Source: Actinomadura sp. NBRC 104412 | GTDB lineage: Bacteria; Actinomycetota; Actinomycetes; Streptosporangiales; Streptosporangiaceae | Reading direction: 5' to 3' | Assembly: GCF_030269515.1 (NCBI RefSeq) | Contig: NZ_BSTM01000025.1 | Span: 1-64,000 of the forward strand | Length of the DNA stretch: 64,000 nucleotides | In this document: piece by piece, positions 4,837 to 63,759 of the stretch | Position numbering within the stretch: the stretch's first letter is position 1 | Layout of the letters: every line of letters begins with the position of its first letter | Translations under genes and position numbers: made by a program | The notes under the pieces: generated by a model | Told to the model about the DNA's origin: nothing | The model's database searches: none | The model's input: only the letters and a program-made list of their open reading frames with translations

Positions 4837-6789
4837 TCAGGAGGGGAGTTCGGAGACGTCCGACAGCCAGGTGGTCGCGTCGACCCCGCCGGACGCCAGC
4901 GTCCGCCCGTCGGGGCTGAAGGCGACCGCGGCGGCGCCGGCGCGGTGCCCGCTCAGCACGGCCAGGGCGCGCCGCCCGCCGACGTCCCACAGCCGGATCG
5001 GCGAGTCGGGTCCGGCGCTGGCCAGCGTGGCACCGTCCGGGCTGAAGGCCAGGGACCGCACCTGCTGGTTGTGGCCGGTCAGCATCGCGGCCTGCGTCCC
5101 GGCCGGCAGGCTCCACAGCCGGGTCGTGCCGTCCGCGCCGCCGCTGGCCAGGGTGCGCCCGTCCGGGCTGAACGCCACGGCGGGCACCGTGTCGATGTGG
5201 CCCCGCAGGGTGGCCGTGGGCCGTCCCGAGCGCACGTTCCACAACTGGATCGTGCCGTTGCCGCGTCCCGCCGCCAGGACCGAGCCGTCCCGGCTGACCG
5301 CCAGGCCGACCACCTCCGCGTCCGGGCTGGCCAGCCGCCCGACCTCGCGCCCGCCGGCGACCTCCAGGATCCGGACGCCGTCGGTGGTGGCCACGGCCAG
5401 CCGGTCGCCGCCGGTGCCGACGAAGGCCGCCGACGGCCCCGTGGCGGCGCTCGCCGCAGTGTTGCCCAAGGTGCGGGTCTCGCCGGTCTCCACCGTCCAC
5501 ACCCGTACCGGGCCGCCCGTGCCGCCGACCCCGGCGACGAGGCTCTCGCCGTCCGGGCTGAACGCCAGCGAGGAGACCTGACCGCCACCGTCGAACCGGG
5601 AGGGGACGTCCGGGTCGGAGGCGCTCAGCGATTCCCCGGACGTGGCGTCCCAGAGCTGGATCTTGCCCGTGGTGGTCGCCGTGGCCAGCGTCTCGCCGTC
5701 CTGGCTGAACGCCACCGCCGACACCGGGCCCTCCAGCCCCGAGAGCGGCCCGAGATAGCGATGCGACCCGAGCTGCCGCGCCGCCACCGTCACCGGCACC
5801 GCGACCACCACCAGCGCCGTGATCGCGCTGACGGCCACGCAGGCGAGCACCGCCACCTTCCGCCACCGCTCCAGAAGACGGAAACCTTCAGGGATGGCCG
5901 GTCTCTGAATACGCGGCATCCGCGAGCGCCGCACACCCGCGATAACGGCCGTACCAGATTCGACCGAACCCGGTTCCGTAGAAGCAGCCGCCGAGGACAC
6001 AACGGATCCCGAGGACTTCGCAGGCTCGGCCGGTGCCGCGTCTTGCGCAACCTCCACCGGTGCCGCGAGGCCGGCAACCGTCCCAGCCCCCGAGGATTCC
6101 GGCGGCTCTGCGGACTCTCCGGGCTGTGCAGGCTCTGTGGCTTCGGTGGCTTCCGCAGGTTGGGCTGGTGTCGCGTCTTGCGCGAGGTCCGCGGGCTCCG
6201 CGAGGTCGGTGACCGTTTCGGGTTCGGAGGATTCCGGTGGTTTCGTGGGTTCGGCCGGTGGTCCGTCTTGCGCGAGGTCGGAGGGCGCCGCGAGGTCAGC
6301 GACCGTTTCGGGTTCCGTGGGCTCCGGTGATTCTGCGGACTCTCCGGGCTGTGCAGGTTCTGTGGCTTCGGTGGCTTCCGCAGGTTGGGCTGGTGTCGCG
6401 TCTTGCGCGAGGTCCGCGGGCTCCGCGAGGTCGGTGACCGTTTCGGGTTCGGAGGATTCCGGTGGTTTCGTGGGTTCGGCCGGTGGTCCGTCTTGTGCGA
6501 GGTCGGCGGGCGCCGCGAGGTCGGTGACCGTTTCGGGTTCCGGTGGTTGTGTGGGCTCTTCGGGCTTTGTGGGCGCTGCGGCTTCGGTGGCTTCCGCAGG
6601 TCGGTCCGGTGGCGCGGCCTGTGCGAGGTCCGTGGGCTGCGCGGGCGCGGGTTCGGTGCGGGTGATCGGTTCGGCCGGGGTGCTGGATTCGGTCGGTGCC
6701 GTCGATTCAGCGGATGCCGCCGGGTCCGTTTCCCGGGTGCCTTCCGAACTCTCGGGGCCGTCAAGCGCCGCCGACTCCGGTGGAGGCAT
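4837..6789 (-). CDS. Membrane-anchored seven-repeat WD40 protein with acidic Pro/Glu repeats
   Basis: The 650-residue protein has three parts. Residues 1-270 are Pro, Glu, Ala and Thr rich with long internal repeats. A basic stretch is followed by one membrane helix at about 311-333. Residues 346-650 hold seven WD40-like repeats, with units such as VAFSPDGRTLASGGADG, enough for one full propeller. The basic residues before the helix put the acidic arm inside and the propeller outside. The start has AGGAG seven bases upstream. WD40 propellers usually bind proteins; the ligand is unknown, and the lipoprotein encoded next is a candidate. Confidence 0.8.
   Translation of the reverse strand: MPPPESAALDGPESSEGTRETDPAASAESTAPTESSTPAEPITRTEPAPAQPTDLAQAAPPDRPAEATEAAAPTKPEEPTQPPEPETVTDLAAPADLAQDGPPAEPTKPPESSEPETVTDLAEPADLAQDATPAQPAEATEATEPAQPGESAESPEPTEPETVADLAAPSDLAQDGPPAEPTKPPESSEPETVTDLAEPADLAQDATPAQPAEATEATEPAQPGESAEPPESSGAGTVAGLAAPVEVAQDAAPAEPAKSSGSVVSSAAASTEPGSVESGTAVIAGVRRSRMPRIQRPAIPEGFRLLERWRKVAVLACVAVSAITALVVVAVPVTVAARQLGSHRYLGPLSGLEGPVSAVAFSQDGETLATATTTGKIQLWDATSGESLSASDPDVPSRFDGGGQVSSLAFSPDGESLVAGVGGTGGPVRVWTVETGETRTLGNTAASAATGPSAAFVGTGGDRLAVATTDGVRILEVAGGREVGRLASPDAEVVGLAVSRDGSVLAAGRGNGTIQLWNVRSGRPTATLRGHIDTVPAVAFSPDGRTLASGGADGTTRLWSLPAGTQAAMLTGHNQQVRSLAFSPDGATLASAGPDSPIRLWDVGGRRALAVLSGHRAGAAAVAFSPDGRTLASGGVDATTWLSDVSELPS
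6103..6552. repeat. Two tandem 225-bp repeats inside the WD40 gene
   Basis: The stretch reads twice with a period of exactly 225 bp (75 codons); for example TCTGCGGAC recurs at 6107 and 6332, and TGTGGCTTCGG at 6136 and 6361. A degraded third unit follows towards 6600. The period is a multiple of three, so the reading frame is kept. It encodes the acidic Pro/Glu arm and probably varies in copy number. Confidence 0.8.
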
Positions 6790-7066
6790 TCCACTCTCCT
6801 GTCACAGTCGCTCGGCCGGGATCACCGGCCTCGCCCGAGTGAGGCGGGGGTAATCGGGGCGCGAGATGTCCAAGCTTTCCGGCACTACGTTCGAGAATGA
6901 TCCGACGGCATCGGGAAAGTCAACCGGAAAACTGATCGAGAGCGGGCCGGTGCATTCAGTATGTCGTATGCCGAGGTCGTCGATTGTGCATTCGTGGAAA
7001 CGCCCTGGCCGAAAAACGCCACTCGCAGGCGGGAGTCGTAACTTGACATCGGCGACGGCCCGTCCT
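6790..7066. other. Intergenic region between two diverging transcription units
   Basis: This 277-bp stretch is less GC-rich than its surroundings. It has short open frames but none with a convincing ribosome binding site and codon bias. It probably carries the promoter of the WD40/lipoprotein unit, which reads leftwards. No clear dyad was found. Confidence 0.4.
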
Positions 7067-7597
7067 TTATGAGGCCGGCAGGTAGGTGGTCTGGCTGAAG
7101 CCGCCCTTCCCGAAGGCCAGGATCTTCGACGGCTTCACCGCGAACACGTGGGCGACGGACTCTCCTTCGTCCGGCGCGCCTCCGGTGTCATGGGTGAAGC
7201 CCACGTCGTTCGGGCGGAAGCGCCACTGCCCTTCCCACTTCGCGGCCCAGGCGGCGGCGAGCCGGTCGAGGGTGGGACGGTCGGTGACCCGCTGGGCCTC
7301 GCCTTCGACCATCACGTCCAGCCCCTGCTTCCACTGGTTGCAGCCGGTGGTGAGGACGGCGTTGGGGTTCGCGGCGAGGTTGAGGGCCTTCTGCTCGTCG
7401 GGGCCGGTGCAGAAGTGGAGTGCGTCGTCCAGCCACACCGCCACCACCGGCGTGACGTGTGGCCGCCCGTCGGCGCGGACGGTGGTGATCCAGAAGAGCT
7501 GCGCCGACTCCAAGGTCTCGCGGGTGACGGCCCACGGCGTCTCTCGCGCCCCCGGATCGCTGAACCGCTGGTCGAACCGGGCGACCGGTTCCTTCAT
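7067..7597 (-). CDS. Pyridoxamine 5'-phosphate oxidase-family protein
   Basis: A protein of about 176 residues of the split-barrel flavin reductase fold. The FWITTVRADGRPHVTPV segment is the usual first strand pair, followed by LHFCTGPDEQKALNLAANP and a C-terminal VKPSKILAFGKGGFSQTTY. Actinomycete members often bind F420, FMN or heme; the exact substrate is unknown. The ATG at 7597 has GGGG nine bases upstream; a GTG two codons earlier is too close to it. It is a single gene, with its upstream region facing the glycosyltransferase. Confidence 0.8.
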   Translation of the reverse strand: MKEPVARFDQRFSDPGARETPWAVTRETLESAQLFWITTVRADGRPHVTPVVAVWLDDALHFCTGPDEQKALNLAANPNAVLTTGCNQWKQGLDVMVEGEAQRVTDRPTLDRLAAAWAAKWEGQWRFRPNDVGFTHDTGGAPDEGESVAHVFAVKPSKILAFGKGGFSQTTYLPAS

Positions 7598-7727
7598 GAG
7601 CACGTACCCCTATCAGGTCGCGGATGCGCCGAACGATACGGTCGGCCTCCGACATCGCCGCCGAACCCCACGCCGATGGGCACCGGGGTGATAGGCGGGC
7701 GCGACCGTTGGTGGAAGGCTGCCGATC

Positions 7728-8861
7728 GTGTGGATTCTGGCTGGCCTTGCGCTGGTGGCCTTGGCGGTTTGGGTGGTGCTGGCGTTCGGTCACGGCGGCT
7801 TCTGGCATACCGGGAAGCGGCTTCCCTCCGGGGTTGAACCCGCCTTCTGGCCGTCCGTCGTCGCGGTCGTACCGGCGCGCGACGAGGCGGAGGTGCTGCC
7901 GGAGACGTTGCCGACGCTGCTGGCCCAGGACTATCCGGGACGGTTCCGCGTCGTCCTGGTCGACGACCGCAGCACCGATGGGACGGGGGATGTCGCCCGC
8001 GACCTGGGCCAGGGAAACGTCCAGGTCGTCCGGGCGCGGGAGCGTCCCGAGGGCTGGGCGGGGAAGGTCTGGGCGATGTCCGAGGGCGTCCGGGCCGCGG
8101 GCGCACCCGAGTTCATCCTCTTCACCGACGCCGACATCGCCTACGCCCCCGGAACCCTCACCGCGCTGGTGCGCGCCGCCTCCGAAGGACGCGACCTGGT
8201 GTCGCAGATGGCCACGCTCAACACGGGCACGGCCTGGGAACGCCTGCTCATCCCCGCGTTCGTCTACTTCTTCGCGCAGCTCTACCCGTTCCGCCTGGTC
8301 GAGGACGGCCGGACCGCCGCCGCGGCCGGGGGCTGCATGCTCGTACGGAGAAGCGTCCTGGAACGCGCCGGTGGCCTCGACGCCATCCGCGGCGCCGTCA
8401 TCGACGACGTGGCGATGGGACGCCTGATCAAGCGGCGCGGCGGTGGGCGGTGCCGCCTGGACCTGAGCCGCGACGTGGTGTCGCGCCGCCCCTACCCGCG
8501 CTTCGCCGACCTGTGGGACATGGTCGCTCGCAGCGCCTACGACCAGCTCCGCTACTCGCCCGTCCTGCTGGCGGGCACGGTGCTCGGCCTGCTCCTCGTG
8601 TACGCGGTCCCGCCACTGGCCACCGTGATCGGGGCGCTGGCGCAAGGGAACGCCGCGACCGGGACGCTTGCCGCAGGAGCGACGGCCTGGGCGCTGATGA
8701 GCCTGACCTACACGCCGATGCTCCGCTTCTACGGCCTCTCGGCCCTGCGAGCCCCGGCCCTTCCCTTGGTGGCGCTCCTGTACACGGCCATGACGGTCGA
8801 CTCCGCCCTCCGCCACCACACCGGACGCACCACCTGGAAGGGCCGGACGCTCGTCCGCTGA
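7728..8861 (+). CDS. Family 2 glycosyltransferase, HpnB-like
   Basis: The protein has 377 residues. A first membrane helix (residues 1-20) is followed by a GT2 domain with VVPARDEAEVLPETL, LVDDRSTDGT, a DAD metal motif in FTDADIAYAPG, and WAGKVWAM, which is characteristic of the hopanoid-linked HpnB group. Two or three C-terminal membrane helices follow. HpnB-like enzymes are linked to hopanoid side-chain glycosylation, but no squalene or hopene gene is in the window, so the substrate is open. The GTG start has GGAAGG upstream. The stop abuts the stop of the next, convergent gene. Confidence 0.8.
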   Translation: MWILAGLALVALAVWVVLAFGHGGFWHTGKRLPSGVEPAFWPSVVAVVPARDEAEVLPETLPTLLAQDYPGRFRVVLVDDRSTDGTGDVARDLGQGNVQVVRARERPEGWAGKVWAMSEGVRAAGAPEFILFTDADIAYAPGTLTALVRAASEGRDLVSQMATLNTGTAWERLLIPAFVYFFAQLYPFRLVEDGRTAAAAGGCMLVRRSVLERAGGLDAIRGAVIDDVAMGRLIKRRGGGRCRLDLSRDVVSRRPYPRFADLWDMVARSAYDQLRYSPVLLAGTVLGLLLVYAVPPLATVIGALAQGNAATGTLAAGATAWALMSLTYTPMLRFYGLSALRAPALPLVALLYTAMTVDSALRHHTGRTTWKGRTLVR

Positions 8862-39274: not shown

Positions 39275-40720
39275 TCACAGGCCCAGCGCCTGGCGGAGGT
39301 ACGGGGCGTGGCGGCGCGCCACGGGGACGGTTTCGTGGGCGCGGGAGTCCGTGCACAGGAGAAGCGTGCCCTTGAAGCCGCGTTCGATCTCCCGTATCCG
39401 TCCCAGGTTGACCAGGAAGCGGCGGTGGACGCGCAGGAAGCCCTTGTCCTCCAGTTGCCGTTCGAGCCGGTCGAGGCCGCGGGTGGCGGAGAGCAGCCTG
39501 CCCTGGTCGCTGGTCAGCCAGACGTTGTTGTGGTCGGCCTCGGCGTAGCGGATCTCGCGCGGGTCGAGCAGGACCCACCGGTCGTCCCGGAGCGCCACCA
39601 CGCGGGCGGGGAACGAGCGGGGCGGGGGCGGCGGTGAGGCGAGCAGGGGGTCGCCGGACGAGCCTCCGAAGGGCGGCTGGTCGTCCGGGGACCCGAACGC
39701 CATCAGCAGGCCGATCACCCGGGTCGCGGCGAAGACGGGGCGGACGGCCACCGAGATCGGAGTGCCGAGGAAGGGCACGAAGACCTGGGTGACGCCCGTC
39801 CAGTGCGGGTCCTGGCGGGCGCGCTCGACGGCGCGGCGGGCCAGCCGGGGCAGCGTGGGGAGCTGGGGCGTCCAGCGGTGCGCGGGCGCGTAGGCGGGGG
39901 TGTCGGCGGGCGTGCCCAGCAGGACCGCGGCCTCGCTGTTGGCGAGCACGACCTTCCCGGCGGGGTCGACCGCGGCGAGGGGCGTGCCGGGCGGGACGCG
40001 GGCGTCGGTGATGGAGGCGGCCAGCATCGCGCCGCTGTCGTAGGCGCGCTGCCGCAGCTTGGCCTCGGTGGCGGCGGCGACCTTGCGCAGCCAGGGCAGG
40101 ACGTCGTCCGACAGCGGGGTCCTCCAGCAGGAGATGTTGAGGACGGCGAGCGGGTCCTGGGTCACGACGTCCCGGACGGCGACGCCCGCGCACACCCACG
40201 GGTGGAAGCCGCGGCACCAGTGCTCGGGGCCGCGCACCATGATCGGGCGGTGGCTCTCCAGGGCGGTGCCCATGCCGTTGGTGCCGGTCGCCCACTCCGA
40301 CCAGGTGGACCAGGGCGCCAGGTTGCTGTCGGCGGCCAGGTGCAGGATCCGCCGGCTGCCCCAGGACGCGAGGATGCGCCCGTCGGGGTCGGCCACGGTG
40401 ACGATGCCGTCCAGGCCGTCCACCTCGGTGGCGGCGGTGGTGGCCAGGCCGCCGAGCTCGGCGAACACCACGTCGTTGTCGATGGTGTGGGAGCTGTCCT
40501 CGGACGCGGCGGGCGCCTTCTCCAGGCCGGGATCGACCTCGTACTCCTCCCGGCACCGGTACCAGGACATCAGGATCTCCGGCCGGACGCCCTGGACGCT
40601 GTCGTCACCGGCGGCGAACCGTTCCCAGGCCGCCGTGGTGATTTTGAGATTGTCGCCCGCGAGGGCGATCCCGCTCGTTGCGGTGGAGCCGCCGTTCGTT
40701 GGGTCTGTCGCGCCGTTCAT
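39275..40720 (-). CDS. GAF-domain regulator with LytTR DNA-binding domain
   Basis: A 481-residue regulator of mixed design. Residues 20-215 look like the AcoR sensor half (TAAWERFAAGDDSVQGVRPE, LMSWYRC, then a GAF domain with GTNGMGTALESHRPIMVRGP). A PAS-like region follows (about 240-340). Residues 375-481 are a LytTR domain (YAEADHNNVWLTSDQGRLLS, FLRVHRRFLVNLGRIREIER). The ATG has GGGAG upstream. It diverges from the PQQ/alcohol dehydrogenase block and probably activates it in response to a small molecule. Confidence 0.85.
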   Translation of the reverse strand: MNGATDPTNGGSTATSGIALAGDNLKITTAAWERFAAGDDSVQGVRPEILMSWYRCREEYEVDPGLEKAPAASEDSSHTIDNDVVFAELGGLATTAATEVDGLDGIVTVADPDGRILASWGSRRILHLAADSNLAPWSTWSEWATGTNGMGTALESHRPIMVRGPEHWCRGFHPWVCAGVAVRDVVTQDPLAVLNISCWRTPLSDDVLPWLRKVAAATEAKLRQRAYDSGAMLAASITDARVPPGTPLAAVDPAGKVVLANSEAAVLLGTPADTPAYAPAHRWTPQLPTLPRLARRAVERARQDPHWTGVTQVFVPFLGTPISVAVRPVFAATRVIGLLMAFGSPDDQPPFGGSSGDPLLASPPPPPRSFPARVVALRDDRWVLLDPREIRYAEADHNNVWLTSDQGRLLSATRGLDRLERQLEDKGFLRVHRRFLVNLGRIREIERGFKGTLLLCTDSRAHETVPVARRHAPYLRQALGL

Positions 40721-40893: not shown

Positions 40894-42063
40894 ATGCGTG
40901 CCGTGGTGTACCGGAAGCCCTTCGAAGTGGCGGTCGAAGAGGTGCCCGACCCCCGGATCGAGCAGCCCAACGACGTGATCGTCCGGATCACCTCGGCCTG
41001 CATCTGCGGGTCGGACCTGCACATGTACGAGGGGCGGACCGCCGCGGAGCCGGGGCTGGTGCTCGGCCACGAGAACCTCGGCGTCATCGACGAGGTGGGC
41101 AGCGGCGTCACCACCCTGGAACGGGGCGACCGGGTGGTGATGCCGTTCAACGTGGCCTGCGGCTTCTGCAAGAACTGCCTCGCCGGATTCACCGGCTTCT
41201 GCCTCACCGTCAACCCGTCGGGCTTCGCCGGCGGCGCCTACGGCTACGTCGCGATGGGCCCGTACCCCGGCGGGCAGGCCGAGTACCTGCGCGTCCCGTT
41301 CGCCGACTTCAACTGCCTGAAGCTGCCGCCCGGCACCGACCACGAGACCGACTACGCGCTGCTCGCCGACATCTTCCCCACCGGCTACCACGGCTGTGAG
41401 CTGGCCGGCGTGTCGCCGGGCGAGACGGTGGCGGTGTACGGGGCGGGACCCGTGGGGCTGATGGCCGCCTACTCCGCGCTGCTGCGCGGCGCGTCCCGCG
41501 TCTTCGTGGTCGACCGTGTCCCCGAACGGCTCGCCAAGGCGCGCGAGATCGGCGCGATCCCCGTCGACTTCTCCGCGGGCGACCCCGTCGAGCAGATCAG
41601 GGACCGGACCGGCGGCGAGGGCACCGACAAGGGCATCGACGCCGTCGGCTACCAGGCACTGGTCGGCGGGGAGGACGGCGAGGCCCGGGAGGACCCGGCC
41701 GCCGTGCTGAACCAGCTCGTCGACACCGTCCGCCCCACCGGCGCGCTGGGCGTGCCCGGCCTGTACGTGCCGTCCGACCCGGGCGGGGTGGACGAGGCCG
41801 CCAAGCGGGGCGTGCTGGCCGTCGCGGTCGGGCGGCTGTTCGAGAAGGGCCTGCGCGTCGGCACCGGGCAGGCGAACGTCAAGCGCTACAACCGGCGGCT
41901 CCGCGACCTCATCAGCGAGGGCCGGGCGGCCCCCGGCTTCGTGGTCTCCCACCAACTCCCTCTCCAGGAGGCGCCCATCGCGTACCAGAAGTTCGACCAG
42001 CGGGTGGAGGGCTACACCAAGGTCATCCTCAAGCCCGACAGCGGCCTGGGACCCGACCCATGA
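40894..42063 (+). CDS. Zinc-dependent alcohol dehydrogenase, formaldehyde dehydrogenase-like
   Basis: The 389-residue MDR protein has ACICGSDLHMYEG and LGHENLG for the catalytic zinc, four Cys in ACGFCKNCLAGFTGFC for the structural zinc, and VAVYGAGPVGLMA for NAD. The insertion GFAGGAYGYVAMGPYPGGQA is typical of glutathione-independent formaldehyde dehydrogenases and related enzymes. Next to a PQQ alcohol dehydrogenase it may remove or recycle the aldehyde or alcohol. First gene of the block, with no clear strong binding site. Confidence 0.88.
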   Translation: MRAVVYRKPFEVAVEEVPDPRIEQPNDVIVRITSACICGSDLHMYEGRTAAEPGLVLGHENLGVIDEVGSGVTTLERGDRVVMPFNVACGFCKNCLAGFTGFCLTVNPSGFAGGAYGYVAMGPYPGGQAEYLRVPFADFNCLKLPPGTDHETDYALLADIFPTGYHGCELAGVSPGETVAVYGAGPVGLMAAYSALLRGASRVFVVDRVPERLAKAREIGAIPVDFSAGDPVEQIRDRTGGEGTDKGIDAVGYQALVGGEDGEAREDPAAVLNQLVDTVRPTGALGVPGLYVPSDPGGVDEAAKRGVLAVAVGRLFEKGLRVGTGQANVKRYNRRLRDLISEGRAAPGFVVSHQLPLQEAPIAYQKFDQRVEGYTKVILKPDSGLGPDP

Positions 42064-42166
42064 CGGCACCCGCGACCGACCCCACGACCGATGACGACCT
42101 GTGTTACCGGCCACGAGCGTGGCCATGGACGGCGAGCCGAAGCAGCTTCGACTGGGAGGTGAAGTG

Positions 42167-42631
42167 ATGGCGACCCCCACGGACGAGCGATCCGCGCTGG
42201 TGAGCGAGATCGGGCTGGACAGGCAGAACGGGGCCGCGCTGGGCCGGGTGCTGGCCACCGGCAACATCGGCAAGGCCGAGGAGGGCCCCGACGGCCGGAT
42301 GAAGGCCACCATCCGGATCAGGGAGGACCAGCTTGTCTACGACCCCTCGGTGCTCGTTATCCCCCATGGGGGCGACCTCGACATCGAGATCTACAACGAC
42401 GACAAGAACACCCATTGCGCGCTTTTCCCGAGCAATGGCGACCATCAGTTCATCTGGCTGGTGAACCATTCGCGCGGCACGGCGAGCCTGAGGCTCGACG
42501 GCCCCGGCTACTACTGGTACGGCTCGCCCACCGGCAACGACGAGGGACGCGGCCTCACCGGCGCCATCGTCGTGATGGGCGAGGTCCCCGACGACGCCAA
42601 GCTCGACCGGCCGGCCCAGCCACGACCGTAG
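42167..42631 (+). CDS. Cupredoxin-like protein of the PQQ operon
   Basis: A 154-residue protein with a cupredoxin-like pattern: VLVIPHGGDLDIEIYNDDKN, NTHCALFPSNGDHQFIW, then PGYYWYGSPTGNDEGRGLTG and AIVVMGE. The usual Cys-Pro-His copper loop is replaced by YGSPTGNDEG, so a type 1 copper site is doubtful; His and Cys in NTHC might still bind metal. It has no signal peptide. The ATG has GGGAGGTG at ideal spacing. Close to the dehydrogenase gene (13 bp), it may be its electron partner or a helper. Confidence 0.7.
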   Translation: MATPTDERSALVSEIGLDRQNGAALGRVLATGNIGKAEEGPDGRMKATIRIREDQLVYDPSVLVIPHGGDLDIEIYNDDKNTHCALFPSNGDHQFIWLVNHSRGTASLRLDGPGYYWYGSPTGNDEGRGLTGAIVVMGEVPDDAKLDRPAQPRP

Positions 42632-42644
42632 AAAGGAGCAGTTG

Positions 42645-44330
42645 ATGGCGGAATATGTGGACGCGGGGAAGGCCGTCGACTGGTCGTCCCTGAGCGGGGT
42701 GGTCGGGAGCGCGCCGCCGACCGTGACCAACGTCGGCTACGAGCGCCTGCTGCACGCACGCTCGGAGCCGCAGAACTGGCTCACCTACTTCGGCGCCTAC
42801 GACGGGAAGCGGTACTCGCCGCTGGAGCAGATCAACGTCGACAACGTGCGGCGCCTCACCCCCGCCTGGGTGTTCCAGTGCGGGTCCGCCGGGTTGCAGG
42901 CGGGCGGGTCGACGTACGCGTTCGAGGCGTCCCCGATCGTGGTGGACGGCGTCATGTACGTCACCGGCTGGGACGGCTACTGCTGGGCCCTGGACGCGGT
43001 GACCGGCAAGGAGCTGTGGCGGTACAAGCACGCCACGCCGTTCGACACCTCCCTGTGCTGCGGCAACGTCAACCGCGGCGTCGCGGTGGCGCACGGCAAG
43101 GTCTACATGGTCACGCCGAACGCGCATGTCATCGCGCTCGACGCGGAGACCGGCAAGGTCGTGTGGGACCGCACCAACGGCGACGTGCGGGCGGGCGAGA
43201 GCGCCACGCTGGCCCCCCTGGTCGTCAAGGACATGGTCATCGTCGGCAGCGCCGGCGGCGAGTTCGGGGTGCGCGGCCATCTCGACGCGTTCGACCTGGA
43301 GACGGGCGAGCGCCGGTGGCGCACGTACACGATCCCGAAGCCGGGCGAGCCCGGCTCCGAGACCTGGCCGGCCGACGGCGAGCAGTGGGCGCGGGGCGGC
43401 GGCAACCCGTGGATCACGCCCACCTACGACCCTGAGCTCAACCTGCTGTACACCGGGACCGGCAACCCCGCGCCCGACTTCGACGGCGAGGTGCGGCCGG
43501 GCGACAACCTCTACACCGACAGCTGCATCGCGGTGAACCCCGACAACGGGGAACTGGTCTGGCACTACCAGCACAATCCGCACGACCTGTGGGACTACGA
43601 CAGCATTTCGGAGAACACCCTCTTCGAAATGGACGGCCGCAGATTCCTGGGGCATTTCAACAAGAACGGTTACGCCTACATTCTCGACCGCACCAACGGC
43701 GAGGTGGAGAGGGTGTTCCCGTTCGTCGACCGGATCGACTGGGGGACGGTGGACTCCAAGGGGCAGATCGAGGTCCACAAGTACCCCGACGAGGAGGGCG
43801 TGCCGGTCCACTTCTACCCCGGTCCGGGCGGCGGCAAGGAGTGGACGCACAACGCCTACAGCCCGAGGACGGGGCTCTTCTACGTCCCGGTCCAGGACGT
43901 CGGCGCGACCGCGACGCGGCGGCGCAGGGAGTTCAAGGAGGGGATCCCGTACTGGGGCGCGGGCGTCGCCGTGGACACCGAGGGCATGGCGGGTTCGATC
44001 AGCGCCTTCGACCCGGCCACCGGCCGGGAGGTGTGGCGCTGGCGCAACGAGGTGCCGATGTGCGCGTCGGTGCTGGCCACGGCGGGCGACCTGGTGTTCG
44101 CGGGCGAGCCCACCGGGGAGTTCAACGCGCTGAACGCCCGTACCGGCGAGCTGCTGTGGCAGTTCCAGTGCGGCAGCGGCCACCACGGCAGCCCGTCCAC
44201 CTACAGCGTCGGCGGACGGCAGTACATCGCCGTGCCGAGCGGCTGGGGCGGCTGGATCGAGGGCTTCGCCCCCGGCATGCTCGCCGGGACCCACGGCGCC
44301 GCCCTCTTCGCGTTCGCCCTGCCCGACTAG
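42645..44330 (+). CDS. PQQ-dependent alcohol dehydrogenase without signal peptide
   Basis: A 561-residue eight-bladed quinoprotein with repeated docking motifs such as ALDAVTGKELWRY and ALDAETGKVVWDR. Vicinal Cys138-Cys139 (DTSLCCGN) form the ring-shaped disulfide at PQQ. Metal ligands are Glu206 (GGEFGVRG), Asn274 (GTGNPAPDF) and catalytic Asp317, with an extra Asp319 (LWDYDSIS), as in lanthanide enzymes of the XoxF type. Residues 1-40 are hydrophilic; no signal peptide or c-type heme is present. The ATG has AAAGGAG upstream. Substrate is likely a primary alcohol. Confidence 0.9.
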   Translation: MAEYVDAGKAVDWSSLSGVVGSAPPTVTNVGYERLLHARSEPQNWLTYFGAYDGKRYSPLEQINVDNVRRLTPAWVFQCGSAGLQAGGSTYAFEASPIVVDGVMYVTGWDGYCWALDAVTGKELWRYKHATPFDTSLCCGNVNRGVAVAHGKVYMVTPNAHVIALDAETGKVVWDRTNGDVRAGESATLAPLVVKDMVIVGSAGGEFGVRGHLDAFDLETGERRWRTYTIPKPGEPGSETWPADGEQWARGGGNPWITPTYDPELNLLYTGTGNPAPDFDGEVRPGDNLYTDSCIAVNPDNGELVWHYQHNPHDLWDYDSISENTLFEMDGRRFLGHFNKNGYAYILDRTNGEVERVFPFVDRIDWGTVDSKGQIEVHKYPDEEGVPVHFYPGPGGGKEWTHNAYSPRTGLFYVPVQDVGATATRRRREFKEGIPYWGAGVAVDTEGMAGSISAFDPATGREVWRWRNEVPMCASVLATAGDLVFAGEPTGEFNALNARTGELLWQFQCGSGHHGSPSTYSVGGRQYIAVPSGWGGWIEGFAPGMLAGTHGAALFAFALPD

Positions 44331-44389
44331 CGGCGCCCGCACGCCCACGCCCGAACGGTCCCGAGACCACGAGGGAGGAGGTGAAACGC

Positions 44390-44527
44390 ATGGTGAAAGG
44401 TAGGGAGCGCGAGAGCGTCGCCCCCCGGACCGACCTGTCCGAGTGGGAGACCCCCGCCTTCGAGGAGGTCGGTGTCTCCGCCGAGGTGACCGCGTACTTC
44501 GGCGTGTTGGACTTCGAGGACGACTAG
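44390..44527 (+). CDS. pqqA: PQQ precursor peptide PqqA
   Basis: A 45-residue peptide. The conserved AEVTAYF gives Glu32 and Tyr36 in the E-x3-Y arrangement that PqqE crosslinks to build PQQ. WETPAFEEVGV before it is the leader bound by PqqD. The C-terminal tail FGVLDFEDD is longer and more acidic than in proteobacteria. GAGGGAGGAGG lies before the ATG. It is 59 bp after the dehydrogenase and is followed at once by a hairpin. Confidence 0.93.
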   Translation: MVKGRERESVAPRTDLSEWETPAFEEVGVSAEVTAYFGVLDFEDD

Positions 44528-44542
44528 CCCGCCCCGGGCGGG
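44528..44542 (+). terminator. Hairpin directly after pqqA
   Basis: CCCGCC and GGCGGG pair around CCG, beginning at the base after the pqqA stop codon. There is no U tract. Such a hairpin could protect or partly terminate the pqqA transcript, giving more precursor than enzyme mRNA. Confidence 0.45.
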
Positions 44543-44614
44543 TCAGGCGCGGCGGGAGGCGTCCGGCGGTGGTGCCGGGCGCCGCCCGCCCGGTGCGCGG
44601 AGAGGTGATCGACG

Positions 44615-45508
44615 TTGTGGGTGCGCGTGCTCGGGTCGGCGGCCGGCGGGGGATTTCCGCAGTGGAACTGCACCTGCCCTCCGTGCGACGCGGTACGGAC
44701 CGGCTCCAGGCCCGCACGGCCGCGTACCCAGTCGTCCATCGCGGTGAGCCCCGACCACCGGCGGTGGTTCCTTTTCAACGCCTCACCCGATGTGCACGCC
44801 CAGATCGAACGCTCCCCGGCCTTGGGGCCCTCTGCCGGACGGGCCGTCCCGCTGGAGGCGGTGCTGCTGACCGACGCGGAGCTGGACCACACGCTGGGCC
44901 TGCTCCTGCTGCGGGAGGGACGCGGGCTCCGGCTCCATTGCACCGAGGCCGTGTACGAGGCCCTGCGCGACGGCAACTCGCTGCTCCGGACGCTGGAAGC
45001 GTACTGCCCCGTCACCTGGCATCCGGTCGTGCCGGGCGACGACGTCGCGTTGTGCGACGGCCTGTCGTACCGGGCCTTCGACGTGCCGACGACCAAGCGG
45101 GCGCGGTTCGGCCCCGATGACGCGCCCGGACGGGTGGTGGGCTACCGGCTGAGCGGGGAGGACGGCCGGTCGGTGGTCTACCTGCCGGGCGTCCAGGAGC
45201 TGACGCCCGGGGTGCTGGAGGCGGTGGACGGCTGCGACTGCCTGCTCGTCGACGGGACCTGCTGGAGCGACGACGAGCTGATCCGGCTCGGCCTGGCCGC
45301 CAGGACCTCACGGGACATGGGCCATGTGCCCATCGGCGGGCCGGACGGCAGCCTCGTCCGGCTGTCCTCGCCGCCCGCCGCCCGGCGCACCATCTATCTC
45401 CACGTCAACAACACCAACCCGATCCTGATCGAGGACTCGCCCGAACGGCGGGCCGTCGAGAGCCGCGGCATGGAGGTGGCCGTGGACGGGATGGAACTGC
45501 GGATCTGA
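44615..45508 (+). CDS. pqqB: PQQ biosynthesis protein PqqB
   Basis: A 297-residue metallo-beta-lactamase-fold protein that begins VRVLGSAAGGGFPQWNCTCP, the PqqB signature with its Cys pair. TDAELDHTLGLLLLREGRGL and VDGTCWSDDELI match the family. PqqB hydroxylates the Tyr of the crosslinked intermediate. It starts with TTG behind AGAGGTG; a GTG two codons on is possible. Length is as usual. Confidence 0.93.
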   Translation: MWVRVLGSAAGGGFPQWNCTCPPCDAVRTGSRPARPRTQSSIAVSPDHRRWFLFNASPDVHAQIERSPALGPSAGRAVPLEAVLLTDAELDHTLGLLLLREGRGLRLHCTEAVYEALRDGNSLLRTLEAYCPVTWHPVVPGDDVALCDGLSYRAFDVPTTKRARFGPDDAPGRVVGYRLSGEDGRSVVYLPGVQELTPGVLEAVDGCDCLLVDGTCWSDDELIRLGLAARTSRDMGHVPIGGPDGSLVRLSSPPAARRTIYLHVNNTNPILIEDSPERRAVESRGMEVAVDGMELRI

Positions 45509-45516
45509 GAGCGGCC

Positions 45517-46212
45517 ATGGTGACGGTAACAACGGAGAACGACGGCTTCGTGGGCGCGTTGCGCGCGCAATCCCGGCGCTACCACGACCGGCATCCCTTC
45601 CACCGCAAGATGAACGAGGGCGCGCTGAGCCGCCGCCAGATCCAGGGCTGGGCGGCCAACCGCTTCTACTACCAGCTGAACCTGCCCCGCAAGGACGCCG
45701 CGATCATCGCCAACTGTCCTGACCGCGACGTCCGCCGCCGCTGGATCCAGCGCATCCTGGACCACGACGGGACGGCGGACGGCGAGGGCGGGATCGAGGC
45801 GTGGCTGCGGCTCGGCGAGGCCCTCGGCCTGGACCGGGACGAGCTGCTGGACGAGCGGCACGTCGTCCCCGGCGTCCGGTTCGCCGTCGACGCCTACGTG
45901 ACCTTCGCCCGTACCCGGCCGTGGGTCGAGGCGGTGGCGTCCTCGCTCACCGAACTGTTCGCCCCGGGCCTGATGGCCGAACGGCTGGCCGCCTTCGAAC
46001 GCCATTACCCGTGGATCGACCGCGCGGGCCTCGCCTATTTCCGGGCCCGCCTCACCCAGGCCCCCCGTGATTCGGAGCACGCCATGGAGGTGGTGACGAA
46101 GTACTGCCGGACACCGGCCGAGCAGTCGGCCGCGGTGGCGGCGCTGGCGTTCAAATGCGACGTGCTGTGGAGCATGCTCGACGCCACCGAACGGGCCTAT
46201 CCGGATGGTTAG
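45517..46212 (+). CDS. pqqC: Pyrroloquinoline-quinone synthase PqqC
   Basis: This 231-residue cofactor-free oxidase has YHDRHPFHRKMNEGALSRRQ, QGWAANRFYYQLNLPRKDA and RDSEHAMEVVTKYC, all PqqC family segments that surround the active site. It carries out the last ring closure and eight-electron oxidation to PQQ. It begins 8 bp after pqqB and overlaps pqqD by 8 bp. Confidence 0.95.
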   Translation: MVTVTTENDGFVGALRAQSRRYHDRHPFHRKMNEGALSRRQIQGWAANRFYYQLNLPRKDAAIIANCPDRDVRRRWIQRILDHDGTADGEGGIEAWLRLGEALGLDRDELLDERHVVPGVRFAVDAYVTFARTRPWVEAVASSLTELFAPGLMAERLAAFERHYPWIDRAGLAYFRARLTQAPRDSEHAMEVVTKYCRTPAEQSAAVAALAFKCDVLWSMLDATERAYPDG

Positions 46213-46498
46213 CGTGCGCGCCGTCGGCGACACTGACCGTCCCCGCCTCGCGCCGCACGTGCGGCTGGAGTTCGACCCGGCGCGGGGACGTCACATGCTG
46301 TTGTCCCCGGAGGCGGTCACCGTCCTGAACGCGACGGGCGCGGCGGTCCTCGGCCTGTGCGACGGGCGCCGCACCGTCGCCGGGATCGTGGCCGAGCTGC
46401 GCGGACGCTACGAGGTGGTGATCGACGGGGAGGTGCGGGAGTTCCTCGCCCGGCTGGTCGCCGCGCGCCGGCTGGAGATGGGGGACGGGGATGGATAG
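46205..46498 (+). CDS. pqqD: PqqA-binding chaperone PqqD
   Basis: The 97-residue protein is a winged-helix peptide carrier: RLAPHVRLEFDPARGRHMLL, PEAVTVLNATGAAVLGLCDG and an EFLARLV helix. PqqD holds the PqqA leader and brings it to PqqE. It overlaps pqqC and pqqE by 8 bp on each side, so translation is coupled. Confidence 0.93.
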   Translation: MVSVRAVGDTDRPRLAPHVRLEFDPARGRHMLLSPEAVTVLNATGAAVLGLCDGRRTVAGIVAELRGRYEVVIDGEVREFLARLVAARRLEMGDGDG

Positions 46499-47567
46499 GC
46501 CGTTCGGTCTGCTGGCGGAGCTCACCTACGACTGCCCGCTGCGCTGCTCGTACTGCTCCAACCCGCTCGACCTGGGCGCGTACCGGGACGAACTGGCGAC
46601 CGGCGAGTGGCGGAGGGTCATGGCCGAGGCCCGGGACCTGGGCGTCCTGCACCTGCACCTGTCCGGCGGCGAGCCGCTGCGGCGCCGCGACCTGGTGGAC
46701 CTCGTCCGGGAGGCGCGGGACCTGGGCCTCTACACCAACCTCATCACCAGCGCGCTCGGCCTGTCGTCCCGGCGGGCCGAGGAGCTGCGGGCGGCGGGAC
46801 TCGACCACGTCCAGATCAGCGTCCAGGCCGACCGTCCGGAACTGTCGGACCGGCTCGCCGGCCTGCCGTCCTTCCAGCGCAAGCTCGCGGCGGCCCGCCT
46901 GGTGAAGAAGCTGGGCTGGCCGCTGACGCTGAACGTCGTCCTGCACCGGCACAACATCGACCGGATCGACCGCATCCTCGAACTGGCCGAGGAACTGGAC
47001 GCCGACCGCATCGAACTGGCCAACACGCAGTACTACGGCTGGGCCTGGCGGAACCGGGACGCCCTTCTGCCGAGCGGCTCCCAGCTCGACCGCGCCGAGA
47101 CCGTCGTGCGCGCGGCCCGCCGACGCCTGGAGGGACGGATGGAGGTCATCTACGTCCTCCCCGACTACTACACCCGCTACCCCAAGCCCTGCATGGGCGG
47201 CTGGGGCAGACGGCAGCTCACCGTCATCCCCAACGGCGACGTCCTGCCGTGCCCGGCCGCGCACACCCTGCCGCTTCCCCGCGCGAACGTCCGCGAGCAC
47301 GGCCTGGCGTGGATCTGGGAGCGGTCACCGATCTTCCGGCGGTTCCGCGGGACGGACTGGATGCCGGAGCCCTGCCGGAGCTGCGACCGCCGCGAGCTCG
47401 ACTTCGGCGGCTGCCGCTGCCAGGCGTTCCAGCTCACCGGCGACGCGTCCTGCACCGACCCCGCCTGCCACCTCTCTCCTGACCACGCGCTCGTGGAGGA
47501 CGCGGTGAACAACGCCGACCGGCCCCTGCCACCCCGTGAGCTCCTGCCCCGGGAGGTGCCGCGATGA
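46491..47567 (+). CDS. pqqE: Radical SAM PqqA peptide cyclase PqqE
   Basis: The 358-residue enzyme has the radical SAM CxxxCxxC at Cys15, Cys19 and Cys22 (YDCPLRCSYCSNP), the SGGEPL SAM motif and a SPASM domain with many Cys (CRSCDRRELDFGGCRCQAF). It joins Glu and Tyr of PqqA by a C-C bond. QYYGWAWRNRDALLP is conserved in the family. The end overlaps the exchanger gene by ATGA. Confidence 0.95.
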   Translation: MDRPFGLLAELTYDCPLRCSYCSNPLDLGAYRDELATGEWRRVMAEARDLGVLHLHLSGGEPLRRRDLVDLVREARDLGLYTNLITSALGLSSRRAEELRAAGLDHVQISVQADRPELSDRLAGLPSFQRKLAAARLVKKLGWPLTLNVVLHRHNIDRIDRILELAEELDADRIELANTQYYGWAWRNRDALLPSGSQLDRAETVVRAARRRLEGRMEVIYVLPDYYTRYPKPCMGGWGRRQLTVIPNGDVLPCPAAHTLPLPRANVREHGLAWIWERSPIFRRFRGTDWMPEPCRSCDRRELDFGGCRCQAFQLTGDASCTDPACHLSPDHALVEDAVNNADRPLPPRELLPREVPR

Positions 47568-48664
47568 CCTCGATCCTCGTCTTCGCCGCGGGCGCGGTGC
47601 TGCTGATCTACAGCGCGGAGAAGCTGATCGGCTACCTCGTGGGCGTCGCGAGCGGGCTCAGGGTCTCCATCTTCCTGCTCGCCATCGTCTTCACCGGCAT
47701 CGAGTTCGACGACGTGTTCCTGGGCGTCGCGCTGAACCTGGAAGAGGTCGAGGACGTCGCGTTGGGCATCGTGCTGGGCACCGCCATCTCGATGACCGGG
47801 GTCGTGCTGGCGCTCGCCGCGATCCTCACCCCCACCAAGGTGACCATCCCGCGCGACTACCTGCTCGTCTTCGCGCTGGCCCCGCTCCTGATGATCGTGT
47901 TCGTGGTGCTGGAGCCTTTGGACGTGGTCGAGGGGCTGGCGTTGCTCGGGCTGTTCGGGACCTTCCTCGCCTACGTCGCGGTCCGCGAGTCCAGAGGGGA
48001 CAAGCCCATCTTCCGCGACGCCGAACTGTACGAGGCGTATGTCGCCGTCCGCGCGTCCCGGGAAGGGGACGGGGGGACGGCCACCCTCACCGGCACGCGC
48101 CCGGCCACGGCGGATCCCGGGCGGACACCACCGGAGACCCATCCGGGACGGCATTTCTCCGAGGCCGCCCCGTTCGCGGAGGCGCGCAGGCACTCGGGGT
48201 GGGCGGGCCTGTGCCTGGCGGTGCTGGCCCTGGCGGGCCTGGTCGCCGGCGCCGCGATCACGGGCATGGGAACCGAGGGCATCCTGGAGACCTACGGGCT
48301 GGAGGGCACCCTCTTCGGCGCGACGATCGCCACGGTCGTCCTCACCGTCGAGGACGTCTTCCTCACCGTGGAACCCGCCCGCAAAGGCGCCCCGGAAATC
48401 GGCGTCGGAAACGTCATCGGAAGCGTGGTGTTCTCCGTCACCGGGAAACTCGGGGTGATCGTGCTGGCGGGCGGCCTGGTGATAGCGCCCGACGTCCTCA
48501 CCTGGCACCTGCCCGCCCTTGTCGTCCTCACCGGTTTCGCGGCGTACGTGCTGCACACGGGCGAGCTGAAACGGTGGCACGGCGTCGTGCTGCTGGCCTT
48601 CTATATCGCCTATTGGATCGTCAGCTTCACGGCCTTCGGAACCGCGCCCGTCGAGGTGGACTGA
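47564..48664 (+). CDS. Divergent CaCA-like cation exchanger
   Basis: The 366-residue membrane protein has about ten helices in two halves around a hydrophilic loop (about 145-215). Each half has an alpha-repeat similar to CaCA (Na+/Ca2+ or H+) exchangers: TGIEFDDVFLGVAL with LGIVLGTAI, and VVLTVEDVFLTVEPARKGAP with VGNVIGSVVF. The GTSxPE motif is replaced by GIEFDDV and VLTVEDV, giving more acidic residues. Translationally coupled to pqqE. It may handle Ca2+, or a lanthanide, for the PQQ dehydrogenase; that is inference. Confidence 0.7.
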   Translation: MTSILVFAAGAVLLIYSAEKLIGYLVGVASGLRVSIFLLAIVFTGIEFDDVFLGVALNLEEVEDVALGIVLGTAISMTGVVLALAAILTPTKVTIPRDYLLVFALAPLLMIVFVVLEPLDVVEGLALLGLFGTFLAYVAVRESRGDKPIFRDAELYEAYVAVRASREGDGGTATLTGTRPATADPGRTPPETHPGRHFSEAAPFAEARRHSGWAGLCLAVLALAGLVAGAAITGMGTEGILETYGLEGTLFGATIATVVLTVEDVFLTVEPARKGAPEIGVGNVIGSVVFSVTGKLGVIVLAGGLVIAPDVLTWHLPALVVLTGFAAYVLHTGELKRWHGVVLLAFYIAYWIVSFTAFGTAPVEVD

Positions 48665-61808: not shown

Positions 61809-62067
61809 CCGCTGGAGTCCTGCACTCCCACAGTAGATCAGCCGTCGATCTCGGCCATGAGCCTCGCGTGCTCTGCCTGGATCCGCGCGCGTTACAAAGC
61901 ACCGTGGTGGCAGGGGAACAGTCATTGTGGACCGTGATGCGGTTTTTCGGCGCGGCGTCGGCCCTTCGGCGGGGATCGGTGACCGCCTGGCGGAAGGGGC
62001 GCTGACGGTGGGGGCTCGGTTGAGGATGCTGAGGAGGAAGGGAGATCTCCGCTCGGGAGGTGGGCCG
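61809..62067. other. Intergenic region before the AcoR-like regulator
   Basis: No gene or clear dyad is seen. It should hold the promoter of the regulator gene. Open frames here have poor codon bias. Confidence 0.4.
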
Positions 62068-63759
62068 GTGCCTCCGGAAACCATGGTTCCCATGCGCGGC
62101 CACGAGGCGTGGCGGCGGACGTTGGCGGTGAAGGAGCGGTTTCTGGAGGGTGGGGATCCGGATCTGCTGCCGCCGGAGGACTGTGGGGTGCGGCGGGAGA
62201 TCGTGCTGTCGTGGCGGCGGTCGCTGCTCAGCGGGGTGGACGCGGCGGCCACGGACCTGCCCAGGGACGAGGCCGCCGTCCCGCCGGAACGGCTGGTGCG
62301 GGCGGCGCGTCCCGTGATGGACCGCCTCGAAGCGGAGATCGCCGGGTCGCGGGTGTGGGCGTTCCTGGCCGACGGTGAATGCCGGCTGGTCCGGCATGTG
62401 GTGGGGGATCCGTCGCTGGTGCCGCAGTTGGAGGCGCGCGGGGTGTTCCCCGGGGCCTGGTTCGCCGAGGACGTGGTCGGCACGAACGGCCTGGGCACCG
62501 CGGTCGAGCAGCGGCGGCCGTTCATCGTCGCGGGCAGCGAGCACTTCCGCGCGTACGAGAGCGAGGCGACCACCGCGGGCGCGCCGGTGCGCGACCCGGC
62601 GACGGGACGGCTGGTCGGCCTGCTCAACATCAACTGCCGGTACGAGTCCACGAACGGGCTGCTCCTGCCGCTCGTCACGGAGCTGGCCCGGGAGATCGAG
62701 GCGCGGCTGCGGGCCGGTGCCTCGGCCGACGAGCGCGCGTTGCTGGAGGAGGTCGTGCGGGCCTCGAAACGGTCGCCGCAGCCGGTCGCCGGGCTCGGCG
62801 AGGAGCTGTTCATCGCCAACCCGGCCACCCTCACCCTGCTGGACGGCGCGGACTACGAGCCGCTGCGGCGATGGGCCCGCGAGGTCTCCGCCTCGGGACG
62901 GGAACGCACCTCCAGGCTGCGGCTCGGCTCCGGCCTGGTGGTGTCCGCGCGCTGCCGCCCGCTGTCCGGCTCCGCGGCCGTGGTGAGCCTGACCCCCATG
63001 ACCGCGACCCACCCGCCGTCGCCGTGGCAGCGCCTGCTCGACCAGGTGGAGCGGGCACGCGCCACACGGCTGCCCGTGCTGCTCAGGGGCGAACGCGGCA
63101 CGGGGAAGACCGTCCTGTCCCGCCGCCTGCACGAAACCGGGCCGCTCACGGTCGTCGATGCCGCCGTGGACCCGCTCCCCCCGGCGCTGGACGAGGGCAC
63201 GGTCGTCCTGCGGCACCTCGACGCGCTGCCACCGGAACGCGCGGCGCCCGTGGCGGCACGGCTGGAGTCCGCGCGGGCCCGCCTGGTCGCCACGGCCTCG
63301 GAACGGGAGCCCGGCGACGGCCTGCGCGCCCTCCTTGAACGGTTCCCCGTCGTCCTGGACGTGCCGCCGCTGCGCGAGCGGATGAGCGACCTGCCCGCGC
63401 TGGTCAACGAGATCATCGCCGAGCTGCGTCCCGGGACGCCGCGTCCGCGCTGCACGCCGGACGCGCTCGCGGCCCTGGCCGAGAGCCGGTGGCCGGGGAA
63501 CCTCCGCCAGCTCCGGCAGGTGGTGGCCACGGCCCTGACCCGCTCGCTGTCCTGCGACATCACCGTGGACGACCTTCCCGGCGACCATGGGCGTCCCCGG
63601 CGGCTGACCAAGCTGGAGAGGGCGGAACGGCACGCCCTGCTGACCGCGCTCCGTGACGCGTCCTGGGACCGCGAGGCCGCCGCCCGCGACCTCGGCATCT
63701 CACGGGCGACCATCTACCGCAAGCTCAAACGCTTCGGCATCAGGCCACCGCAGGGGTGA
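62068..63759 (+). CDS. AcoR-like regulator lacking the sigma-54 motif
   Basis: The 563-residue protein has an AcoR-type start (RRTLAVKERFLEGGDP, REIVLSWRRSLLSGVD), a GAF domain (about 85-225; DVVGTNGLGTAVEQRRPFIV), a reduced AAA+ region with Walker A RGERGTGKTVLS, and an HTH_8 end (AARDLGISRATIYRKLKRFG). GAFTGA, needed to contact sigma-54, is absent, as expected in actinomycetes. The GTG at 62068 has GGGAGGTG at ideal spacing. It sits 7 bp before an SDR gene that it may control. Confidence 0.87.
   Translation: MPPETMVPMRGHEAWRRTLAVKERFLEGGDPDLLPPEDCGVRREIVLSWRRSLLSGVDAAATDLPRDEAAVPPERLVRAARPVMDRLEAEIAGSRVWAFLADGECRLVRHVVGDPSLVPQLEARGVFPGAWFAEDVVGTNGLGTAVEQRRPFIVAGSEHFRAYESEATTAGAPVRDPATGRLVGLLNINCRYESTNGLLLPLVTELAREIEARLRAGASADERALLEEVVRASKRSPQPVAGLGEELFIANPATLTLLDGADYEPLRRWAREVSASGRERTSRLRLGSGLVVSARCRPLSGSAAVVSLTPMTATHPPSPWQRLLDQVERARATRLPVLLRGERGTGKTVLSRRLHETGPLTVVDAAVDPLPPALDEGTVVLRHLDALPPERAAPVAARLESARARLVATASEREPGDGLRALLERFPVVLDVPPLRERMSDLPALVNEIIAELRPGTPRPRCTPDALAALAESRWPGNLRQLRQVVATALTRSLSCDITVDDLPGDHGRPRRLTKLERAERHALLTALRDASWDREAAARDLGISRATIYRKLKRFGIRPPQG

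Follow-up and report, generated by a model that had tools for sequence, protein, structure and literature searches.

We describe here a block of genes for the production and use of pyrroloquinoline quinone (PQQ) in Actinomadura sp. NBRC 104412, located in a 64-kb window (the whole stretch of DNA that was analysed) that forms part of contig C25 of the 7.85 Mb host genome. A preliminary description made from the sequence alone had named nine genes on one strand, from a Zn-dependent dehydrogenase to an exchanger. All nine are confirmed on the forward strand, and the pqq, PQQ dehydrogenase, cupredoxin-like and exchanger proteins pass the curated cut-offs of the NCBIfam and Pfam models with which gene families were assigned. 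The first gene (40894..42063) was taken for a Zn-alcohol dehydrogenase and has ADH_N and ADH_zinc_N domains; a closer label is glutathione-independent formaldehyde dehydrogenase-like, at 360.6 bits with TIGR02819, under the equivalog cut-off of 636.95. It is followed by a leaderless MSMEG_3727-family protein of predicted cupredoxin fold (42167..42631; TIGR04339 279.6 bits, cut-off 75) and by a leaderless PQQ alcohol dehydrogenase of lanthanide type (42645..44330; TIGR03075 626.5 bits, cut-off 480.05), the sole match above this cut-off in the host genome.

The cofactor genes come next: pqqA, coding for a precursor peptide of 45 residues with an E-V-T-A-Y motif (44390..44527; over the cut-offs of PF08042 and TIGR02107, PqqA scoring 31.6 bits for a cut-off of 20), pqqB (44615..45508; TIGR02108 375.8 bits, cut-off 245), pqqC (45517..46212; TIGR02111 331.6 bits, cut-off 240), pqqD (46205..46498; TIGR03859 76.5 bits, cut-off 46) and pqqE (46491..47567; TIGR02109 526.7 bits, cut-off 381.35). 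The last gene encodes an exchanger of the CaCA superfamily (47564..48664; PF01699 94.4 bits, cut-off 24.9), of a subtype that we call EFDD. With all five Pqq proteins above their curated cut-offs, the block holds a PQQ biosynthesis operon by gene content, and the only PF05402 (PqqD) match in the host genome is the one found here; the idea that synthesis and use of PQQ are joined in one self-contained block is supported. The overlaps reported from pqqC to the exchanger are exact (8 bp for pqqC/pqqD, 8 bp for pqqD/pqqE, and 4 bp, ATGA, for pqqE/exchanger), and the remaining intergenic gaps measure 8 to 103 bp. The block further takes in the divergent gene of a LytTR transcriptional regulator (39275..40720, reverse strand; PF04397 2e-18), which probably controls it. 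The N-terminal half of this regulator is weakly DhaR-like (23.5 bits, far under the cut-off of the DhaR model), and it is 49% identical over 458 residues to a regulator near the cassette in other loci. A second frame, at 61927-63759 of the window (forward strand), resembles the N-terminal half of this cassette regulator (29% over 246 residues).

The MSMEG_3727-type cassette is defined by a TIGR04339 protein encoded next to a PQQ dehydrogenase and pqq genes, a definition that the window fits. It has been described for Mycobacterium smegmatis as MSMEG_3721-3727 (TIGR04339/PF23509), with a single PQQ alcohol dehydrogenase and pqq genes; these accounts, in their accessible parts, are silent on the metal, on the absence of a leader and on any metal transporter (PMC3023750, PMC6529628). 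The cassette and the chemistry of its enzyme class are already known, and the suggestion that blocks of this kind are uncommon among actinomycetes has to be given up: besides the M. smegmatis cassette, a scan of genome contigs for the TIGR04339 marker confirmed 193 stretches, and the best 80 are all titled actinobacteria. These 80 loci (L020-L099), being the best 80 of the 193, are biased towards close relatives. The carriers fetched include Streptomyces, Pseudonocardia, Amycolatopsis, Saccharopolyspora, Geodermatophilus, Kineosporia, Mycobacterium, Arthrobacter and others. The complete order from Zn-dehydrogenase to exchanger, for which a search of actinobacterial genomes had been proposed, was found in Pseudonocardia kunmingensis (L081) and Geodermatophilus chilensis (L082), and the core order recurs in dozens of the fetched loci, beyond chance. 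The marker scores above its cut-off in 7 of 246 genomes of the phylum and was found in 2 of 394 genomes of the class, the host being one of these two. Within the genus, 35 further genomes all lack it. The cassette is therefore not a genus trait; it is patchy, having probably been transferred or often lost.

Among solved structures, the best sequence match of the dehydrogenase is 6zcv (E-value 1.3e-118), which we take to be the lanthanide enzyme PedH; the XoxF structure 6dam follows with 3.8e-93. The segment PHDLWDYDS aligns with PHDGWDFDG of 6zcv, WDYDG of 6dam and WDFSG of 1flg, which places the catalytic Asp and the extra Asp, a lanthanide ligand, at D317-Y-D319 (43593..43601). E206, N274, D317 and D319 are invariant in 83 of 83 dehydrogenases, and so is the vicinal pair Cys138-Cys139; this set comprises the window's enzyme and 82 homologues, some of them cut by contig ends and two (L012, L025) from the same contig, and the broken gene of L086 is excluded from the ligand, leader and tree counts. 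With Glu, Asn and D-x-D as metal ligands, the enzyme is thus of the lanthanide type by sequence. The extra Asp has been linked to lanthanide use in the parts available of two studies (PMC7300363, PMC11996626). Since xoxF5-like amplicons from actinobacterial isolates appear in the accessible part of another (PMC5606694), lanthanide-type dehydrogenases in this phylum are not new as such.

The reading frame of the dehydrogenase opens just one codon 5' of the start (at 42642), so no leader peptide fits. The frames are likewise closed upstream of the start in 83 homologues (L086 included here), and the start region is mostly of the M-x-x-EYVDAG type in the 82 homologues without L086. We scored leaders as the peak 12-residue hydropathy within the first 50 residues. 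This gave a median of 0.90 and a maximum of 1.61 in the 82 homologues, the two above 1.4 owing their score to Pro-containing stretches from residue 16 onwards, and a recognisable leader was found in none of the 82. Eight of ten proteobacterial controls scored 1.43-2.52. As the export leader of the periplasmic enzymes PedH and XoxF is missing, we do not file the dehydrogenase with them. The window's cupredoxin-fold protein has no leader peptide either, and for two leaderless partners a cytosolic location would be the simplest explanation.

The cupredoxin-like character of this partner holds for the fold, and not for the copper site. Its model (predicted local distance difference test, pLDDT, 75) has 4f2f as best fold match (Z-score 11.6, root mean square deviation (rmsd) 2.6, 98 residues aligned), while comparison with the sequences of solved structures gave nothing clear (best E-value 0.97). 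The type-1 copper loop of Cys, His and Met is absent: neither His nor Met occurs in the corresponding loop in any of 32 rows, one of which ends short there, and Cys is missing from 30 of the 32. The partner is thus no canonical blue-copper carrier, and a role as blue-copper acceptor is disfavoured.

Conserved neighbours were sought by clustering the genes of the 80 loci and then by tblastn on the 61 loci whose flanks reach at least 5 kb upstream and at least 8 kb downstream, 19 being dropped for short flanks; a gene was counted anywhere in the available stretch (CaCA at ≥45% identity, MntP at E-value 1e-8, KatG at ≥40%, regulator at ≥35%, Zn-dehydrogenase at ≥50%). In these 61 loci we found the LytTR regulator in 52, KatG in 52, an MntP-like protein in 32 and the CaCA exchanger in 15, and CaCA and MntP together in none. 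The Zn-dehydrogenase gene is present in 6 of the 80. Restricted to the 50 full-flank loci with pqqE, the counts are 31 with MntP, 12 with CaCA, 7 with neither and 0 with both; the hypergeometric probability of zero overlap, kinship ignored, is 1.1e-6. Both proteins occupy the same place. The MntP gene lies at most 300 bp from the 3' end of pqqE in 40 of 41 loci (39 of 40 distinct ones, L012 being the same as L025), the exception being L022 with MntP upstream of the marker, and it stays with pqqE where the pqq genes are inverted (L031, L074, L097). In a separate set (L012-L014, L016-L018) it follows pqqE in five of six, L016 having neither transporter. By coordinates, the exchanger gene follows pqqE in the 12 CaCA loci with pqqE; in L053 it comes after pqqA, and in L042 and L044 beyond pqqC.

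On the dehydrogenase tree, the transporter state changes at least six times, at least three of these changes being forced by starred branches, and both states occur within Amycolatopsis and within Pseudonocardia. Moreover, of 394 class genomes the same two carry the exchanger (E-value ≤ 1e-40) and TIGR04339: the host and one other (G632), in which they lie 0.5 kb apart; together with the metal-transporter slot this supports the earlier view that the exchanger belongs to the block. In 58 of the 246 phylum genomes the exchanger had a match at E-value ≤ 0.001, but outside the host these were all remote members of CaCA (the best at 39% over a half, E-value 1.5e-18). No member of the MntP family was found in the host genome. 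The swap of two unrelated metal transporters is the strongest evidence that metal transport would be part of the module.

The exchanger has the PF01699 signature over its gathering score and a predicted NCX fold, which place it in the CaCA superfamily. Its model, built with 17 sequences and used for the fold and not for the ion site, has a middling pLDDT of 61 and matches NCX_Mj (5hxr) with a Z-score of 24.1 (rmsd 2.9, 270 residues aligned). It is not a canonical Na+/Ca2+ exchanger: the alpha motif T-S-x-P-E is absent, and TIGR00367 gives 90 bits for a cut-off of 179.65. The alpha-1 ion-site segment reads FTGIEFDD (47690..47713) and, as FTG(I/V/F)EFDD, is otherwise constant in 17 actinobacterial exchangers, in L144 and in the haloarchaeal members of the subtype. 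In the alpha-2 segment LTVEDVFLTVEP (48341..48376), the pair E263-D264 is invariant in the 17 actinobacterial rows. Compared with NCX_Mj, whose ion-site residues we presume to have their usual roles, the carboxylates of the subtype occupy the places of Ser, Pro and Glu. The MntP-like proteins of the cassette also carry motifs of their own, of the LSLDN type (first motif in 42 of 43), where the usual MntP motif is D-A; that of L036 scores 39.2 with the MntP equivalog, far under its cut-off of 214. They are perhaps a distinct subfamily of metal transport proteins.

Above 43% identity, every match of the exchanger on a plasmid is haloarchaeal, with up to 66% in Halococcus dombrowskii. All seven plasmid records with the EFDD subtype, which are seven of the eight haloarchaeal records among the matches listed, also carry PQQ dehydrogenases, the nearest at about 3 to 13 kb from the exchanger, whereas haloarchaeal records with non-EFDD exchangers, among the matches listed (40 of 101; 60 of 310), are without them. 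The haloarchaeal dehydrogenases read have DYD in 11 of 11, a hydrophobic start in 0 of 11 (peak hydropathy ≤0.52) and the Cys-Cys pair in 9 of 11; their starts are as annotated, except in L153, which is unannotated and was read from the start of the match. These plasmid islands thus resemble the window in combining a leaderless DYD enzyme and an EFDD exchanger on one replicon, and differ in having a conserved partner gene of about 305 residues in place of the TIGR04339 protein, for which a plasmid search gave one Streptomyces record and no haloarchaeal match. Furthermore, the Halococcus exchanger is nested among those of actinobacteria, with support of 100/99 for the clade of 19 rows and of 92/92 for its inner fork, which indicates that genes crossed domains. 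The association of enzyme and exchanger would then recur in a second domain of life, possibly by shared transfer.

Building on the gene content, the D-x-D ligands, the leaderlessness, the conserved linkage and the transporter swapping, we propose, with a probability of roughly 0.55, that the block encodes a module for alcohol oxidation in the cytosol, in which a lanthanide-type PQQ dehydrogenase is combined with the synthesis of its cofactor and with a linked metal transporter. PqqA to PqqE would produce PQQ in the cytosol, where the leaderless dehydrogenase would pick it up without export, bind a lanthanide via the extra Asp D319 and convert a small alcohol, perhaps methanol, to an aldehyde, which the adjacent formaldehyde dehydrogenase-like Zn-enzyme could oxidise further. 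The cupredoxin-fold protein would serve as the constant partner of the dehydrogenase rather than as a canonical blue-copper carrier. The exchanger or, in other loci, MntP may set the cytosolic lanthanide (or the competing Ca2+), via uptake or removal of excess, and the divergent LytTR regulator would control the block. Electrons may pass to oxygen, with KatG clearing peroxide in most relatives, or to another carrier. KatG in most of the related loci suggests that peroxide is formed; it is not in the window's block, and the single KatG match of the host genome sits on another contig. No c-type cytochrome was seen by eye among the translated proteins of the block. One further step, which we regard as possible rather than probable, is that the EFDD exchanger and the LSLDN MntP-like protein could be dedicated lanthanide transporters for a cytosolic lanthanide enzyme, common to Gram-positive bacteria and haloarchaea.

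A number of observations weigh against this proposal, and they bear in turn on the metal, on the location and on the transporter. That the module handles calcium is the best of the alternatives, although we consider it rather unlikely: the enzyme would use Ca2+ or either metal, and the exchanger would balance cytosolic Ca2+ (or MntP, Mn2+). CaCA proteins normally move Ca2+, the fold matches NCX_Mj (Z-score 24), and PF02659, the MntP-like family, is named putative manganese efflux pump. CaCA and MntP proteins usually export cations, so uptake would not be their default direction, and they might as likely guard against mismetallation or dispose of surplus lanthanide as take the metal up. The acidity of the site is not unique in itself, since relatives outside the subtype have other acidic patterns (GLDFEN, GMDFEN) with no PQQ enzyme in the stretch read. 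Against calcium stands the very low free Ca2+ of the cytosol, which disfavours a Ca2+ enzyme there, lanthanides also binding more tightly. D-x-D is also found, according to the part seen of one study, in glucose dehydrogenases predicted to be metal-promiscuous (PMC11996626). Nevertheless the extra Asp, linked to lanthanides in the accessible parts of the literature (PMC7300363, PMC11996626), is present in 83 of 83 enzymes and in 11 of 11 haloarchaeal relatives, which argues against the calcium alternative.

As for the location, the dehydrogenase could be exported without a classical leader, by hitchhiking or another route, and work outside like other quinoproteins, which we hold to be improbable. 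Known PQQ alcohol dehydrogenases are periplasmic. In known enzymes the vicinal Cys-Cys pair is joined as a disulphide, a bond that forms more readily outside the cytosol, and the invariance of the pair (83 of 83) would speak against a cytosolic site. In haloarchaeal locus L104, the partner gene starts with a twin-arginine-like stretch. Two of the ten controls lack a hydrophobic annotated start (0.62 and 0.70; in the low-scoring Methylocystis control, homology reaches upstream of that start), and two of the 82 homologues reach into the range of the leadered controls, of which the lowest scores 1.43. Hydropathy alone is therefore weak evidence for leaderlessness. D-x-D occurs in 8 of 10 proteobacterial controls, most of them with leaders, and in two leadered actinobacterial dehydrogenases (L160, L161), and the motif therefore indicates the lanthanide type and says nothing on location. 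Export is made less probable by the missing leader of both the window's enzyme and its partner, by the leaders that these two other enzymes of the phylum do have, by KatG, a cytosolic protein, in 52 of 61 loci, and by ferredoxin genes near the haloarchaeal PQQ dehydrogenases.

The linkage of the exchanger to the cytosolic module has its gaps too. Neither transporter is found in 7 of the 50 pqqE loci, this exchanger is missing from 6 of the 7 cassette genomes of the phylum sample, and L012/L025 has a distant CaCA gene (27% identity) in addition to MntP after pqqE. In three haloarchaeal records the nearest dehydrogenase lies 11-13 kb from the exchanger, and the exchanger of Natrinema thermotolerans (L104, 8001-9031) is an unannotated, two-piece match, apparently broken. 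A passenger role, in which an ordinary cation exchanger adjoins pqqE by chance, would fit the presence of the exchanger in 16 of the 80 loci, most being without it, but is very improbable given its occurrence with the cassette in the same 2 of 394 genomes, its alternation with a second metal transporter (none of the 61 full-flank loci has both) and the repeated association in haloarchaea.

Compared with known systems, the window's enzyme shares with PedH/ExaF and XoxF the PQQ propeller, the four metal ligands and the D-x-D motif; unlike them, it has no leader, a cupredoxin-fold partner and its own pqq genes in the operon. Its exchanger shares two alpha repeats and the NCX fold with NCX_Mj, CAX and TIGR00367 proteins, and differs by extra carboxylates, T-S-x-P-E being replaced by I-E-F-D-D and L-T-V-E-D. 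In a Mycobacterium locus from a species other than M. smegmatis (L077), MntP and KatG stand in the places of the window's CaCA exchanger and Zn-dehydrogenase. The enzymes of XoxF/Lut systems are not known to be leaderless, and the transporters linked to XoxF (NRAMP, MscS, Lut) belong to other families, with other enzymes and in other phyla than the window's. For NRAMP and MscS near XoxF systems of other phyla, a transporter role is proposed in the part available (PMC10875860), and for the Lut ABC (ATP-binding cassette) system, import of lanthanides to the cytoplasm is supported, with entry and storage in the Methylorubrum cytoplasm (PMC7391723, as accessible). Archaeal DYD-type enzymes of marine heterotrophic Thaumarchaea have signal peptides in 15 of 21 families, so that some are without; the vicinal Cys-Cys is missing from them, transmembrane domains are predicted for 19 of 21, and the accessible text does not mention a transporter linkage (PMC7300363). 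In the portion seen of a review, the need for cytoplasmic lanthanide is called unknown (PMC11845868).

No title or abstract in the open-licence literature searched presents the cassette as lanthanide-type, leaderless or transporter-linked. As far as this literature shows, the leaderless lanthanide-type reading, the swapping transporter slot and the haloarchaeal enzyme-exchanger parallel are new. To our knowledge, all known lanthanide enzymes work outside the cytosol, and we know of no earlier intracellular lanthanide enzyme or lanthanide-carrying secondary transporter; if the proposal is true, these would be the first of both kinds. Through such a leaderless lanthanide-type enzyme, with its cofactor operon and linked metal transporter, the question of cytoplasmic lanthanide would become testable in ordinary cultured strains of Streptomyces, Pseudonocardia, Amycolatopsis and Saccharopolyspora, and two transporter families are nominated for lanthanide handling in cells without TonB uptake.

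Some further genes were noted in related loci. Three other actinobacterial PQQ dehydrogenase matches were obtained (L160-L162), two of which were read. That of L160 (1276-3495, forward strand) is a DYD enzyme whose start looks lipoprotein-like by eye and whose C-terminus carries a CxxCH haem motif (CSSCH). That of L161 (1048-3198, reverse strand), also with DYD, has a start that looks twin-arginine-like by eye, and a cupredoxin-like domain is fused to its C-terminus. This domain is weakly similar to the window's partner (E-value 0.044, single comparison), a hint that a cupredoxin-like domain may be a recurrent companion of such enzymes. The distant CaCA gene of L012 lies at 5133-6077 (forward strand), near the cassette that already has MntP, and has the site GLEAEN/IEIEEV.

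In the haloarchaeal islands, the gene of about 305 residues is directly upstream of the dehydrogenase at 9 of 10 annotated places, the second dehydrogenase of L150 being without it; its products are 35-65% identical to that of L101, and the two scanned gave no Pfam match. The copies are at 13911-14828 in L101, 533-1459 and 13987-14898 in L103, 14398-15336 in L104, 10969-11919 in L149, 5063-5983 in L150, 7077-7994 in L151, and 7053-7994 and 14044-14970 in L152. No pqq genes are annotated in the haloarchaeal stretches read, no search aimed at pqq having been made. ABC substrate-binding genes occur near the dehydrogenases or exchangers in L101 (5920-6999), L100, L102, L103, L147, L151 and L152; one of these was scanned and is NMT1/THI5-like, and such genes are a candidate route for the uptake of PQQ or another small molecule.

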